From positions 1 to 26,075 of the IMG/VR virus record IMGVR_UViG_3300035698_000669: DNA of 26,075 nt. One strand, given 5' to 3'. This DNA is from a virus. Both the position numbers and the translations under genes were made by a program. This document shows, one piece after another, positions 14,717-25,023 of the stretch (its first letter is position 1; every line of letters starts with the position of its first letter). The notes beneath the pieces are model-generated. The model was not told the origin of the DNA, made no database searches, and was given only the letters and a program-made list of their open reading frames with translations.

Positions 14717-14745
14717 TTTACACATAAGTTTAAACCCCTTAGATT
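14717..14745 (+). promoter_or_regulatory. Promoter for the 14781 gene, TTTACAC type
   Basis: TTTACA (14717-14722) and TAGATT (14740-14745) are 17 bases apart; the full 7-mer TTTACAC recurs at the other plus-strand promoters in the window. Three TTAAAC copies follow at 14730, 14744 and 14755, the first inside the palindrome GTTTAAAC. The region is the divergence point with the structural block. Confidence 0.6.
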
Positions 14746-14780
14746 AAACCATAGTTAAACAAACATAAGGATATCATATC

Positions 14781-15017
14781 ATGGAATATAATGGTTGGAC
14801 AAATTACGAAACATGGCGCGTGAACCTCGAAGTCTTTGATGGTGGCGATTGGGAAGGCTACTGCTCTGACGCAATGCGTGATTTTGCCGAGGGCGTGGTA
14901 TACGAAGACGCCAAGGGCTTGGCCCTAGATTATGCACTGGCATTCCTCAATGCGGTAAACTGGGACGAGATCGCCCGCGCATACACCGAAGATGAGGCTG
15001 TCATTGCTTTTGGGTAG
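14781..15017 (+). CDS. Small acidic protein with NGWTNYETW N-terminus
   Basis: A 78-aa acidic protein. The start MEYNGWTNYETWRVNLEV is a signature shared by many small proteins of phages and plasmids, all without established function. The remainder is helical with many Asp/Glu. It is the only plus-strand gene between two minus-strand blocks. AAGGATAT lies upstream of the ATG. It has its own promoter (14717-14745) and a terminator (15046-15076), so it is a monocistronic unit. Its last 17 bases overlap the end of the convergent glycosyltransferase gene. Confidence 0.85.
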   Translation: MEYNGWTNYETWRVNLEVFDGGDWEGYCSDAMRDFAEGVVYEDAKGLALDYALAFLNAVNWDEIARAYTEDEAVIAFG

Positions 15018-15921
15018 TGTCTACCAACCCCATTCCATAATTATTAGTGCCGGGAGAAATCTCGGCACTTTTTTTACGGATAAGTTTATTTCTCTTGAAT
15101 GGCCCATAATCGACGTGATGGTGTATCCTTCCGAACCTATGAACAACCTTAGAGACATCTGGATGTGTTGTTAACATCATCTGAGATTTGTCTATAGTCC
15201 CAGTTTGGGAATATTTTTGCCCCTTTTGCGGCTTATCGTCTGCTTGATACAATTCGGAAGTATTACCGCCAGATAGCGATTGTGTCGGCATTTTTTCTTG
15301 CAGGAATGCATTGAACTGAATGGTACACCATTTAGCCTTTAGCATATCCAAAGAGAGGATGGTGTCCTCATTATACCGCCCACGCCACCTGAACGGAACA
15401 TCGTTCCTGATAAAATTACACGAATATATACGAGTGTTTGTGATGAATGGCGGTTGCTTATTTCTAGCTGAAGCAAACATAAAATAATTTGGCCCAGCCA
15501 TAGACACGTTTTCGTATCTCAGGCAAAAATCTTCCATTGCCTTAAAGAACGAGCTGCTGGCGACTTTAACCTTTTCATTCTTGTTCAACCGCCGGAAGCT
15601 TCTAATATTATCATCCATCACCCAATGCCAGCTATGACCGTTTGCTTTCGAGTGATCCCATGCAAAATTTCTTACTGGCCCCGGTCCGGTTGATTTCGTT
15701 AGGCCGTGATTGTCACAAAGCTCATATTTTTCTTTATATGACATATCCAATTCAACCGCCGTGGCTAACAAATCCATTGATTTAATGGACTTTCTGTATT
15801 CGTCCATTTGGCTTGGCTCAACCACAACATTATGCTTGACGCCCATATAAGTCAGATATTTTGATGTCATCATATGCTCTGACCGGCTTTTGCTGGGGAT
15901 ATATATGGGAAAGTCACCCAT
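15001..15921 (-). CDS. Glycosyltransferase of the TET-associated (TAGT) type, predicted DNA-base modifier
   Basis: A 306-aa GT-A-like protein. The N-terminus FPIYIPSKSRSEHM (4-17), the nucleotide-binding-side strand HNVVVEPSQMDEYRK (30-44), GPVRNFAWDHS (81-91), the metal-binding strand WHWVMDDNIRSFRR (98-111) and RYNEDTILSLDML (182-194) follow the order of motifs in the TAGT glycosyltransferases. Those are predicted to add sugars to modified bases in phage DNA. The substrate here is inferred, and no hydroxylase or hydroxymethylase is present in the window. The ATG at 15919-15921 overlaps the stop of the ParB-domain gene by eight bases. The 3' end contains the plus-strand terminator of the convergent gene. 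Confidence 0.72.
   Translation of the reverse strand: MGDFPIYIPSKSRSEHMMTSKYLTYMGVKHNVVVEPSQMDEYRKSIKSMDLLATAVELDMSYKEKYELCDNHGLTKSTGPGPVRNFAWDHSKANGHSWHWVMDDNIRSFRRLNKNEKVKVASSSFFKAMEDFCLRYENVSMAGPNYFMFASARNKQPPFITNTRIYSCNFIRNDVPFRWRGRYNEDTILSLDMLKAKWCTIQFNAFLQEKMPTQSLSGGNTSELYQADDKPQKGQKYSQTGTIDKSQMMLTTHPDVSKVVHRFGRIHHHVDYGPFKRNKLIRKKSAEISPGTNNYGMGLVDTTQKQ
15046..15076 (+). terminator. Rho-independent terminator of the 14781 gene
   Basis: Stem AGTGCCG (15046-15052) / CGGCACT (15063-15069) followed by a run of seven T. It lies inside the coding end of the minus-strand glycosyltransferase, where it encodes residues near the C-terminus. Confidence 0.8.
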
Positions 15922-16546
15922 ATCTTTTTGCCTCTGTATCCATATTTTCTTGTTCGGGGAACCATATCGATTTTGTTTGATCTGTATGGCTCTGGCCTAT
16001 GATGCTGAAGAACTCCGCCACATCGTCATTATTTTCAAAATGTACAATGACGTGTCGGAATGAAGTTTTATCGTCCTGCTCAAATTCGGGCATTCCCTCC
16101 CATTCTTTTTCCGCATCGGTTTTACCTTCTTCTATTGGTAGAAACATATTTAGCAAGTCACCCTCGCTAAATCCAACCAGCGATAAATCAAACCCCTCTA
16201 CGTTCAAATCTTCCATTTCCAATTTGAGCAAATCCATATCCCACCCGGCATTCTGGGGCAGCTGATTATCCGCCAGCACATAGGCTTGCTTTTGCGCCTT
16301 GCTCCAGCCGGTCGCGGTCATGGTTGGAACTTCCTCGATGCCCAGCTTACGCGCCGCCATAACGCGGCCATGCCCTGCGATGATTTCACCTTCCTCGTCG
16401 ATCAGCACCGGGGTGGTCCATCCCCACTCTTTGATCGACGCTGCGATCTGCGCCACCTGTTCGTCAGAATGCGTCCGAGCATTTCGCGCATATGGAATTA
16501 GTGCTTCCACTTTTTTACGTTCGATTTTGTCTGCTGGCCAATCCAT
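15914..16546 (-). CDS. ParB-domain protein coupled to the glycosyltransferase
   Basis: A 210-aa protein. Residues 1-95 form a ParB/Srx-like domain: VEALIPYARNARTHSDEQV, IAASIKEWGWTTPVLID, the GHGRVMAARKLG loop and AYVLADNQLP. The same domain in phages often stands before a DNA methylase, but here no methylase follows. Instead there is a linker and a short C-terminal module, HVIVHFENNDDVAEFFSIIG with QTKSIWFPEQ (about 165-199), which I recall from proteins beside TAGT genes. I chose ATG 16544-16546, with GGAAAGAA eight bases upstream, over the in-frame ATG at 16561, which has no ribosome site. It may act as a targeting or NTP-dependent partner in base modification; this is inference. Confidence 0.8.
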   Translation of the reverse strand: MDWPADKIERKKVEALIPYARNARTHSDEQVAQIAASIKEWGWTTPVLIDEEGEIIAGHGRVMAARKLGIEEVPTMTATGWSKAQKQAYVLADNQLPQNAGWDMDLLKLEMEDLNVEGFDLSLVGFSEGDLLNMFLPIEEGKTDAEKEWEGMPEFEQDDKTSFRHVIVHFENNDDVAEFFSIIGQSHTDQTKSIWFPEQENMDTEAKRYG

Positions 16547-16589
16547 TTTATTTCTTTCCATGTTGGTTAATAAACCCCTCGCCCGCAGC

Positions 16590-18711: not shown

Positions 18712-18978
18712 TTAAATGTCCTTCTCCAAAATGTCCCGCACCAACCTAGCGTAACCCTCGATGTCTAGCCAGTGATCGACGTCATTTGAGTTGCCGCAAA
18801 CTATCCGTGCCATTTTCGTCGCCATCATGTCGAGGCTCTCGCGTTGATATGCGGGCAGAGCATCCCGGTCAACCATTCCCCACATAGCACCCTTGATAGA
18901 CTGAGACACCCGCGACACATCACGATAATCGCCGTACATGTTTGCGCGTTCGTCGAGCGTTTCCTGTACATCAGTCAT
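18712..18978 (-). CDS. DUF6378-like phage protein
   Basis: An 88-aa helical protein with TLDERANMYGDYRDVSRV and then PAYQRESLDMMATKMARIV, DVDHWLDIEGYARLV. These are the conserved elements of DUF6378, common in phage early operons, with no known function. I chose ATG 18976-18978, which overlaps the stop of the Cro-like gene by eight bases; the longer frame up to 18993 would lie further inside that gene. It is translationally coupled to the primase (TAAATG). It may assist replication, judged only from the operon. Confidence 0.8.
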   Translation of the reverse strand: MTDVQETLDERANMYGDYRDVSRVSQSIKGAMWGMVDRDALPAYQRESLDMMATKMARIVCGNSNDVDHWLDIEGYARLVRDILEKDI

Positions 18979-19135
18979 CTGCTGGAAGCCCACCTTTGGT
19001 GAGGCGTTCTATTTCAAACTGACGCAACATGGGCGGGTTTTCGCCCCAGCGATATGTGCCGTGCAGCCCAATGCCGAGCGCCTCGGCCATTTCCTTGCGG
19101 TCGCCAAAGTAGGCAATTGCCTCGTCCGTTGTCAT
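18971..19135 (-). CDS. Cro-like helix-turn-helix repressor
   Basis: A 54-aa protein, MTTDEAIAYFGDRKEMAEAL at the N-terminus, continuing GIGLHGTYRWGENPP and then LRQFEIERLTKGGLP. This is the layout of the P22 Cro / DicC family: an N-terminal helix (about 4-10), a helix-turn-helix (12-30) and a short helix leading to RLTKG(G/K)L. One oddity is the recognition helix, IGLHGTYRWGE, where the usual family pattern is S-x-Q-A-V-x-x-W. The ATG at 19133-19135 has an excellent AGGAG site. It is the first gene of the minus-strand replication operon and lies next to the overlapping divergent promoters, the typical place of an early repressor. No CI-like partner is found in the window. Confidence 0.85.
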   Translation of the reverse strand: MTTDEAIAYFGDRKEMAEALGIGLHGTYRWGENPPMLRQFEIERLTKGGLPADD

Positions 19136-19161: not shown

Positions 19162-19189
19162 TTTACACCATAATACAAACTGTTATTAT
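19162..19189 (+). promoter_or_regulatory. Promoter of the recombination operon, TTTACAC type
   Basis: TTTACA (19162-19167) and TATTAT (19184-19189), 16 bases apart, each match the consensus at 5 of 6 positions. It overlaps the minus-strand promoter. Outer arms ATTTACA (19161-19167) and TGTAAAT (19191-19197) are inverted, with centres 30 bp apart, and are candidate operator half-sites for the Cro-like protein. Confidence 0.7.
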
Positions 19190-19196
19190 ATGTAAA
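19167..19196 (-). promoter_or_regulatory. Candidate promoter of the cro-primase operon, facing the plus-strand promoter
   Basis: On the minus strand TTTACA (19191-19196) is followed after 18 bases by TATGGT (19167-19172), 5 of 6 and 4 of 6 matches. It would start about 20 bases before the Cro ribosome site. RNA polymerase cannot occupy both promoters at once. Confidence 0.5.
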
Positions 19197-19205
19197 TACA
19201 AAATC

Positions 19206-19226
19206 GCAACCGGATAACCCGACCGC
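19206..19226 (+). repeat. Leader element, copy 1
   Basis: GCAACCGGATAACCCGACC and two further bases, beginning about 10 bases after the expected transcript start. A copy with two changes in 21 lies at 24808-24828, also between promoter and first ribosome site. It could be an antitermination, RNA-binding or transcript-level control element. Confidence 0.65.
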
Positions 19227-19247
19227 GATTAAAGAGGAGAAAACGAG

Positions 19248-19421
19248 ATGAACATCAACCTGACCGACATCGAGATCGACCTGATCGAGAGCGCCCTTGG
19301 CGCAGTGTGGTGGCAGCAGGGGGCCACGGACGTGCCCGGCCAATCTGAGGCCCACCGCGTTAAGCGCATCCAGCGCAAGCTGGCCCGCGCAATCGACCAC
19401 GCCGACACCGTAACCGAATAA
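19248..19421 (+). CDS. Small hypothetical protein, first gene of the recombination operon
   Basis: A 57-aa protein, MNINLTDIEIDLIESALGAV at its N-terminus, then WWQQGATDVPGQSEAHRVK and a basic helix (RIQRKLARAID). It is two-helix in character. The ATG at 19248-19250 has a strong AGAGGAG site, so it should be well expressed as the first product of the operon. I do not recognise the family. It is followed by a stable hairpin (19426-19443) before the Sak4-like gene. A regulatory or host-takeover role would fit its place, but there is no direct evidence. Confidence 0.75.
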   Translation: MNINLTDIEIDLIESALGAVWWQQGATDVPGQSEAHRVKRIQRKLARAIDHADTVTE

Positions 19422-19462: not shown

Positions 19463-20137
19463 ATGGCTATCAATTTAAAATCTACGTCATCGGTCAAAGC
19501 GTCGGGCCTCAAAATGCTCGTATACGGCGCTGCCGGATCTGGCAAGACCAGCCTGATCCCAACGCTGCCCAACCCGGTTATTCTCTCGGCGGAAGGCGGA
19601 CTGCTTTCAATCTCGGACAAGGAAATCCCGTTCATTGAAATCGGCAGCATGGACGCGCTCCGTGAGGCATATAAGTGGCTGGCGGAGAGTGACGAAGCCA
19701 AGCCGTTTGAATCGGTGGCGCTGGACAGCATCAGCGAGATCGCCGAGGTCTGCCTGTCCCACGAAAAGCGGGTCAACAAAGACCCCCGCGCTGCCTACGG
19801 CGAAATGCAGACCACGATGGCCGAGGCCATCCGCATGTTCCGCGACCTGCCACGGCACGTCTATATGACCGCCAAACTGGAAAAGTCTCAGGATGAAATG
19901 GGGCGGATGCTGTACAGCCCATCCATGCCGGGACAAAAAGCCGGACAAGCCCTGCCCTATGCGTTCGACATTATCGGTGCGATGCGGCTTGAGAAGGACG
20001 CCGAGGGCGTAGTCCAGCGGGCACTCATGCTGGAGTCCGACGGAATGTGGCAAGCCAAAGATCGGTCGGGGAAACTCGACCAGTGGGAAGCGCCTGACCT
20101 TGGCGACATTATCAAAAAGATCGGGGGCGCGAAATGA
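19463..20137 (+). CDS. Sak4-like RecA-type ATPase (single-strand annealing/recombination)
   Basis: A 224-aa P-loop protein of the AAA_24/Sak4 family. Walker A is YGAAGSGKTSL (21-31), Walker B SVALDSISEI (84-93), followed by the conserved RAAYGEMQTTMAEAIRMFRD and HVYMTAKLEKSQD. Sak4 proteins are phage RecA-core recombinases that act with a single-strand binding protein. The partner is encoded two genes downstream. Ribosome site AAGGAC. The stop overlaps the next start by four bases (ATGA), and the length is typical of the family. Confidence 0.9.
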   Translation: MAINLKSTSSVKASGLKMLVYGAAGSGKTSLIPTLPNPVILSAEGGLLSISDKEIPFIEIGSMDALREAYKWLAESDEAKPFESVALDSISEIAEVCLSHEKRVNKDPRAAYGEMQTTMAEAIRMFRDLPRHVYMTAKLEKSQDEMGRMLYSPSMPGQKAGQALPYAFDIIGAMRLEKDAEGVVQRALMLESDGMWQAKDRSGKLDQWEAPDLGDIIKKIGGAK

Positions 20138-20517
20138 TTGACGATCTGGCACAGAACTGGCTTGACGCCAAGGAAGCGGAAGCCACAGCGGTCGCTCGCC
20201 GCCGCCATCTTGAGGACAAGCTGATGTCGCTGATCGGCGTACCGGAAACGCTGGAAGGCGTCGAGACGGTGGACACCGACGCCGGGTACAGCATCAAAGT
20301 TACGGGGCGCATGAACCGCAAAGTCAACGGCGACCGCATCCAGGAGATTGCAGCGGAGGAGGGGCTAACGGATCATCTGTCCAGCCTGTTCCGCTGGAAA
20401 CCGGAGATCAATATGACAGCGTGGAAAAGCGCCGACAAATCGATCACCGGGCCGCTACTTGGCGGTATCACCACGCAGCCCGGACGGGCTTCGTTCACCA
20501 TTACAAAGGAAAATTGA
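20134..20517 (+). CDS. Hypothetical protein coupled to Sak4
   Basis: A 127-aa protein. Residues 1-37 are a helix rich in Ala, Glu and Arg, then a beta-containing section with TVDTDAGYSIKVTGRMNRKV, a helix (GDRIQEIAAEEGLTD) and RWKPEINMTAWKSAD. Proteins with this N-x-x-A-W-K element occur commonly between Sak4 and DUF669 genes in phages, so it may be an accessory to recombination. I do not assign a reaction. The ATG overlaps the Sak4 stop (ATGA), and the next gene starts one base after its TGA. Confidence 0.8.
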   Translation: MIDDLAQNWLDAKEAEATAVARRRHLEDKLMSLIGVPETLEGVETVDTDAGYSIKVTGRMNRKVNGDRIQEIAAEEGLTDHLSSLFRWKPEINMTAWKSADKSITGPLLGGITTQPGRASFTITKEN

Positions 20518-21031: not shown

Positions 21032-21062
21032 GGCCGGGGGCTAATAACCTCCGGCCATTTTT
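21032..21062 (+). terminator. Rho-independent terminator between the SSB-like and methyltransferase genes
   Basis: Nine-base stem GGCCGGGGG (21032-21040) / CCTCCGGCC (21048-21056) with one G-U pair and a 7-nt loop, then ATTTTTC. It would end part of the transcripts within the operon, making the first genes more abundant. Confidence 0.75.
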
Positions 21063-24767: not shown

Positions 24768-24796
24768 TTTACACCCGCTTTGAACCTGTGGATAAA
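24768..24796 (+). promoter_or_regulatory. Promoter of the small-gene operon, TTTACAC type
   Basis: TTTACA (24768-24773) and GATAAA (24791-24796), 17 bases apart; the -35 lies in GTGTTTACAC. It begins four bases after the VRR-NUC stop. Its design and downstream leader match those at 19162-19226. Confidence 0.65.
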
Positions 24797-24807
24797 CTAG
24801 GTATAGG

Positions 24808-24828
24808 GCAACCGGATGAACCGACCGC
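24808..24828 (+). repeat. Leader element, copy 2
   Basis: GCAACCGGATGAACCGACC and two further bases, differing from copy 1 (19206-19226) at two of 21 positions. It begins about five bases after the expected transcript start and ends 21 bases before the ATG at 24850. Confidence 0.65.
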
Positions 24829-24849
24829 CCCCAACAGGAGACAAACAAA

Positions 24850-25023
24850 ATGATCCGCGCTGAAATAAAGACACCCCACAAAGCCTTCGTTTTTTGCGAA
24901 GAAACCTTGGCCGATGCGCAGGAATACACCGCCGCGATGGTCGCAAACGGAGTCACTGTTTTGAAGGCGGAATATTTCGACCGAGAGACCCGCGTTGCTG
25001 ATATTCGCGCCGGACTCGTTTAA
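24850..25023 (+). CDS. Small hypothetical protein, first gene of the second early operon
   Basis: A 57-aa protein, MIRAEIKTPHKAFVFCEETL at its N-terminus, then ADAQEYTAAMVANGVTVLKA. It alternates strand-helix-strand and looks like a compact globular domain with one cysteine. The ATG at 24850-24852 has ACAGGAG upstream. I do not recognise it. Being first in an operon with its own promoter, it is probably made early and in quantity. Confidence 0.75.
   Translation: MIRAEIKTPHKAFVFCEETLADAQEYTAAMVANGVTVLKAEYFDRETRVADIRAGLV

Follow-up and report, generated by a model that had tools for sequence, protein, structure and literature searches.

A hairpin shared by the leaders of phage early operons: a candidate for a new RNA control element

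Two plus-strand early operons of a marine phage open with copies of one small RNA hairpin. Homologous hairpins head unrelated genes in dozens of related, uncultured phages, nearly always just downstream of a promoter, and the hairpin seems to be an RNA control element that has not been described before. The DNA analysed, here called the window, is a stretch of 26,075 nt from a virus (positions 1 to 26,075 of IMG/VR record IMGVR_UViG_3300035698_000669). A first-pass annotation had proposed that the untranslated leaders of the two operons hold a shared control element, a proposal now strongly supported by covariation, by the occurrence of the element in many relatives, by its fixed placement between promoter and Shine-Dalgarno (SD) sequence and by the unrelated genes that follow it. 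In what follows, "marine" rests on the sources of the isolates and "early" on gene content.

Two leader hairpins in one phage

The TTTACAC motifs on which the proposal had been built were found at 19162-19168 and 24768-24774, and the 21-nt cores behind them, GCAACCGGATAACCCGACCGC (19206-19226) and GCAACCGGATGAACCGACCGC (24808-24828), begin 44 and 40 bases past the starts of the two hexamers and, as had been claimed, differ by two mismatches, 19 of 21 bases being alike. The first motif belongs to a putative sigma70-like promoter (19162-19189, + strand; TTTACA and TATTAT separated by 16 nt), recognised from the sequence and a consensus scan, and the second to another (24768-24796, + strand; TTTACA and GATAAA separated by 17 nt, the latter preceded by TGTG), recognised from the sequence and a distance table. 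Copy 1 of the hairpin (19202-19230, + strand) reads AAUCGC-AAC-CGG-AUAAC-CCG-ACC-GCGAUU and folds with -10.2 kcal/mol (z -3.4 to -4.6); copy 2 (24806-24830, + strand), as folded, reads GGGC-AAC-CGG-AUGAA-CCG-ACC-GCCC. Their scores with the covariance model described below are 51.7 and 45.6 bits, respectively. Both cores lie between the sigma70-like promoter and the first SD and ATG, as the first-pass annotation had it, the transcript starts being placed from the promoter-like sequences.

In operon 1 the hairpin is followed by the SD (GAGGAG) and start codon of the first gene (19235-19250, + strand), which is an ORF of 57 aa (19248-19421, + strand), and then by a gene for a Sak4-like AAA ATPase (AAA_24; 19463-20137, + strand; Pfam AAA_24 2.7e-30, with tblastn matches to annotated Sak4-like proteins), the hallmark of the hairpin-led replication operon. 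The first ORF behind copy 2 (24850-25023, + strand) also encodes 57 aa and is unrelated to that of operon 1, and neither of the two has a Pfam or PHROG match. A search of the window with GCAACCGGATNNNCCGACCGC, allowing up to three mismatches, gave no third match; 0.03 matches are expected in the shuffled window, and two matches arose in none of 100 shuffles. A chance origin of the two copies was considered and is ruled out by these shuffles together with the covariation.

Divergent from operon 1 is a gene for a P22 Cro-like repressor (18971-19135, - strand; P22_Cro 2.4e-15; PHROG 409, transcriptional regulator), whose own leader in the window is, by its sequence, devoid of the hairpin. Between the two, at 19162-19196, promoter-like sites of both directions overlap almost fully, with TTTACA...TATTAT readable on both strands, and a single face-to-face promoter region, open to one polymerase at a time, may thus serve both the Cro-like and the Sak4 operon.

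Covariation and conserved residues

The hairpin has an outer stem, a 3x3 internal loop (AAC/ACC), an inner stem of 3 bp (CGG/CCG) and a 5-nt loop that starts with A-U. That the rest of the two leaders differ, as had been stated, held for the flanking letters and failed for what they form, as the differences are compensatory and pairing is kept (AAUC/GAUU versus GG/CC). The complete outer stems, AAUCGC/GCGAUU in copy 1 and GGGC/GCCC in copy 2, are unlike in sequence and both pair, and such compensatory changes in the flanks indicate a structured RNA that extends beyond the 21 nt of the core.

The wider set of hairpins bears this out, and judged from covariation the hairpin is a conserved RNA secondary structure. 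Across 41 distinct members, the covariation score of the outer stem was 0.357, versus 0.084 in shuffles and no more than 0.098 when the partners were slid, and the columns beside the core (8-32 and 9-31) always formed standard pairs, with five pair types each, in a set of related sequences whose counts are not independent events. With 50 distinct arm pairs the score was 0.435 versus 0.115 for the control, and six of nine pairs changed on both sides, in an alignment that leans toward structure because its loops were removed and some of its members were picked by the covariance model. Among these arm pairs, G-C in the inner stem was replaced by A-U or C-G in seven, and one G-C pair of the core became A-U as well. 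RNAalifold on its own predicts the same structure. A prospective test of inner-stem variants points in the expected direction with small numbers: one of eight matches with the paired variant CAG/CTG lay in a leader context (L199), versus none of 18 with the unpaired control CAG/CCG. Covarying helices within a 5' UTR are the mark of a structured cis-regulatory leader RNA, and the present leaders bear it.

Conservation of the bases themselves is concentrated elsewhere. The internal loop is AAC on one side in 55 and ACC on the other in 58 of 65 parsed sequences, the apical loop begins with A in 59 of the same 65 and takes the form A-U-N3 in 38 of 42 members, and the GC/GC pairs that flank the internal loop are near-invariant. 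An internal loop that hardly varies while the sequence of the stem is free suggests that the element is read by a factor, and of the explanations that the first-pass annotation had listed, an RNA-binding protein is favoured for this reason. It had also listed the target of an sRNA, and a conserved leader sequence adjoining the SD is what a site for a trans-encoded sRNA would offer; the conserved bases, however, are buried within a covarying hairpin, and the unpaired conserved runs are just 2-3 nt long, which makes this explanation very unlikely.

Occurrence in phages and in host genomes

The search of the phage and its relatives that the first-pass annotation had recommended found the element repeatedly. 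A scan of 2.9 million viral contigs (IMG/VR) with the pattern GCAACCGG-N5-CCGACCGC gave 82 stretches, and about 55 of the matches had the leader setting of the window: a sigma70-like promoter, the hairpin at the inferred RNA 5' end, an A-rich linker, an SD and a start codon. The roughly 25-30 matches outside leaders look like chance matches in coding sequence and are explained by the 10-20 or so chance matches that are normal for such a pattern. A covariance model built from the members, the E-values of which are rough, recovered further and more divergent copies.

An independent route led to the same hairpin, in that loci were fetched by their Sak4-like protein (window 19463-20137) and not by the motif. 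Among the 59 Sak4 loci with more than 1.5 kb upstream, 47 had a hairpin at E<=0.01 and another 7 had a match of lower significance, and of the last five, four (L169, L172, L175 and L188) had one by eye, L184 being ambiguous. All matches at E<=0.01 were on the strand of the Sak4 gene and none on the opposite, late-gene strand. Homologous forms occur in the Idiomarinaceae phage 1N2-2 (CAGCGC-AACA-UGA-AUUGG-UCA-AACC-GCGCUG), in the Salicola phage CGphi29 (GUCGC-AACC-UGC-ACACA-GCA-AACC-GCGAC) and in the metagenome-assembled record ct3Oc712 (UGCGC-GAA-CGG-AAUUGG-CCG-AAG-GCGCA), and the Alteromonas phages PB15 and XX1924 have a more degenerate form. No hairpin of this type was found in the farther Sak4 phages, i.e., those of Stenotrophomonas, Microcystis and Rhizobium, Sulfitobacter phage M39 and Escherichia phage GottfriedDienst, and BLAST of the leaders against phage isolates gave nothing relevant.

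These occurrences bear on the suggestion that a promoter-leader cassette had simply been duplicated of late within this phage, without function, for which two copies with 19 of 21 bases alike would be natural evidence. The copies differ, however, by compensatory changes, other phages hold multiple copies whose outer stems are unlike one another, and distant phages have homologous hairpins; with an ancient, covarying element that heads unrelated genes, recent duplication was rejected and its probability is close to nil.

As a separate observation, one contig (G008, locus L178) holds four or more leader hairpins, which vary in inner stem and internal loop and lie without exception on the Sak4 strand.

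In bacteria and archaea, a scan of one genome per species, about 85,000 species in all, gave 32 pattern matches, each a chance-like match in coding sequence except for those on one MAG contig, JAQCKY010000050.1 (L094; 'Proteobacteria bacterium' MAG). This contig is phage-like and has two copies arranged as in the window, and it looks like a member of the hairpin group of phages that ended up in a bacterial MAG bin. Elsewhere in this MAG, and in 40 related bacterial genomes, there was no convincing hairpin (one weak match, 8.9e-4). A host origin of the hairpin was considered and rejected, the phage-like L094 being the only real case among the 85,000 or so genomes and the 40 related genomes lacking a convincing copy.

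Leader geometry and the genes that follow

Where the promoter is good, nearly all members have 37-44 nt between the start of the -35 hexamer and the core, and about 20 nt separate the end of the core from the start codon. The first paired base lies 9.8 +/- 1.35 nt (n = 61) from the end of the -10 hexamer, and from such spacing we infer that no more than a few nucleotides precede the hairpin in the RNA. The short distances would leave a leader that is little more than hairpin and SD. In addition, the stem becomes longer as the distance from the promoter increases (r = 0.51, n = 61, for related sequences taken without phylogenetic correction), as would be expected if only a short 5' overhang were tolerated. 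The hairpin leaves the SD uncovered, and simple sequestration as a means of repression is therefore not apparent.

The first genes behind the hairpins encode 95 distinct proteins that fall into 54 clusters, mostly small ORFans. With so many unrelated first genes, the element is not a gene-specific autoregulatory site, and a hairpin that is tied to promoters and heads many unrelated genes is better understood as acting at the level of the transcript than on any one gene. One copy departs from the rule: at L065:2740-2780 (also L141, 6380-6470) there is no visible promoter, and the hairpin comes directly behind a terminator-like hairpin inside an operon, a position that is unsuited to a strict 5'-end role.

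The same copy bears on whether the element works as DNA, i.e., as an operator or downstream promoter element. Its fixed distance from the -35 hexamer and its quasi-palindromic outer arms would suit such a role; on the other hand, the bases of the outer stem vary freely provided that pairing is kept, the AAC/ACC parts are not palindromic, and a promoter is not visible at the copy just described. An action at the DNA level is accordingly judged highly improbable.

In the window, a promoter can also be present without the hairpin. A monocistronic unit inside the late region (14717-15069, + strand) has a TTTACA promoter at 14717, an ORF (14781-15017) with a weak DUF7249 match and a terminator (15046-15069), and its leader lacks the hairpin despite the promoter. 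Promoters kept without the element, which the first-pass annotation would have counted against its proposal, thus do occur, mildly, in the window; the related gene in L066, however, does carry the hairpin. As another observation in the window, a gene for a TET-associated glycosyltransferase (TAGT, 6e-42) adjoins one for a ParB_N-domain protein (15001-15921 and 15914-16561, both - strand), and the pair is a hint, from gene content, of hypermodified DNA.

Terminators and the case for and against antitermination

The main rival to a role at the mRNA level is processive antitermination of the put or nut kind, in which the nascent 5' hairpin would bind RNA polymerase itself or a polymerase-associated factor of phage or host origin, and cause read-through of terminators in the early operons. 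The hairpin is specific to early operons, promoter-proximal and ahead of unrelated genes, which would suit this. Moreover, the Sak4 operon has kept a terminator-like hairpin 3' of its DUF669 gene (in the window at 21032-21056, + strand, and kept in relatives), a conserved structure additional to the leader hairpin. With a U-run (GGCCGGGGGCUAAUAACCCCCGGCC type) it was present in about 30 of 48 distinct loci. It consists of GGCCGGGGGCUAAUAACCUCCGGCC and a short U-run behind it, and most loci have it 1526-1581 nt from the start of the Sak4 gene, ahead of the gene that comes after DUF669 (e.g., L117, L124, L131, L148, L158 and L165). In many phages a GGAG immediately precedes this hairpin and the following ATG is just some 8-12 nt 3' of it, which usually leaves no room for a promoter. 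The same features allow two descriptions, and structures of the 21032-21056 type may be either terminators or hairpins that bridge an SD; their U-runs, often of only 3-4 U, count against the terminator that antitermination needs.

Other terminators argue against read-through more directly. The hairpin-led operons of site 2 are about 0.6-1.5 kb long and, where they meet the convergent late operon, end in canonical strong terminators (G002, G005, G006 and G007), which durable antitermination would defeat, so a role at the mRNA level fits these operons better. Terminators are also not enriched overall on the hairpin strand downstream (36 sense, 48 antisense).

A near precedent is the put RNA of HK022, which spans about 70 nt with a pair of stem-loops and needs no dedicated protein to suppress termination, intrinsic as well as Rho-dependent, and the putL site likewise lies just downstream of an early promoter (PMC9378689). 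Like put, the element described here is a cis-acting structured RNA in early phage leaders and is promoter-proximal; unlike put, with its two adjacent stem-loops, it is a single hairpin of 25-30 nt (typically some 29 nt, less than half the length of put) with the SD directly after it, in operons closed by strong terminators. In lambda, the nut sites common to both early operons contain the boxB hairpin with its 5-nt, GNRA-like loop, the site of the arginine-rich N protein. Our hairpin resembles boxB in its small size, its 5-nt loop and its place in early leaders, but the loop is A-U-N-N-N, not GNRA-like, and conservation resides mostly in the internal loop. No boxA-like sequence was noticed in the leaders by eye, and Pfam and PHROG scans of selected ORFs gave no N-like gene. 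Antitermination, which the first-pass annotation had put forward, is in short weakened by the strong terminators that close several hairpin-led operons; we regard it as unlikely, if worth keeping in mind.

A proposed factor-read hairpin at the 5' end

The geometry, with the hairpin at the predicted 5' end and beside the SD, suits mRNA stability or translation. The simplest form of such a role would be passive, a 5'-terminal stem that blocks decay by the RppH / RNase E route with no specific factor, and 5' hairpins are known to stabilise mRNAs (PMC3997798). The inferred 5' overhang of a few bases and the longer stems at promoters farther away are what would be expected of it, and, as in the stabilising stem-loops of the ompA and papA type, the hairpin is just upstream of the SD and, with the start placed from promoter-like sequences, would stand at the 5' end with a short overhang. 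Those stem-loops, however, require only a stem, whereas here the bases of both loops are conserved; a passive stabiliser has no need of a near-invariant AAC/ACC loop, of an A-U loop start or of flanking GC/GC pairs, and the unpaired internal loop even weakens the stem. A purely passive role is thus considered improbable.

The explanation that we prefer, and to which we give about an even chance, is that the hairpin together with an RNA-binding factor controls translation initiation and/or 5'-end-dependent decay of the early mRNAs. A single kind of RNA acting in cis, folded as a hairpin of 25-30 nt or so and placed at or near the 5' end of early phage mRNAs, directly 5' of the SD, would be recognised through its invariant internal-loop and loop bases by a factor of host or phage, and the two would regulate all the early mRNAs that bear the hairpin, e.g., by shielding of the 5' end or as a switch of early translation. 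No RNA-binding protein is evident among the conserved genes of the module. The DUF7173 protein (20134-20517, + strand), which adjoins the Sak4-like gene in 14 of the 16 genomes that were compared and is the sole conserved protein of the module without a known role, was examined as a candidate binder and not retained, as its high-confidence AlphaFold model had no PDB match.

There are precedents for a structured or specific site that adjoins the ribosome-binding site of phage mRNAs in the targets of T4 gp32 and RegA and in the operator hairpin of MS2, but those serve the genes of one phage, and here many unrelated genes in many phages are involved. ANTAR RNAs are paired hexaloop hairpins, and LoaP is associated with operons of Firmicutes; as is proposed for ours, these leader RNAs are 5' hairpins read by a regulatory protein, and no gene of the ANTAR or LoaP type was recognised in the phages analysed. 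Rfam 15 gave no match at the gathering score for 10 sources and, at permissive E-values, none that was relevant in the window region or at six further loci. Likewise, the literature searched on phage leader RNAs and candidate structured RNAs, mostly outside subscription journals, held no match. On these searches, the hairpin is a phage leader RNA element outside any named family.

Implications

A broader reading, which we offer tentatively and at clearly less than even chances, is that the hairpin and its factor amount to a phage-specific 5' RNA tag, by which a large group of marine phages would co-control all their early operons, through either a new minimal RNA of about 30 nt that modifies the polymerase or a new translation or decay switch that tells phage mRNA from host mRNA. 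The hairpin itself would represent a phage leader RNA family not described before, present in many uncultured marine phages and, in homologous forms, in at least a few cultured ones. It provides a handle on the control of early expression in these phages, a subject on which the papers searched were silent, and could serve to locate early promoters in phage metagenomes. It is small enough for testing in a single series of reporters, and, if the factor that reads it is found, the two would constitute a new RNA-protein pair with an RNA element of only about 30 nt.
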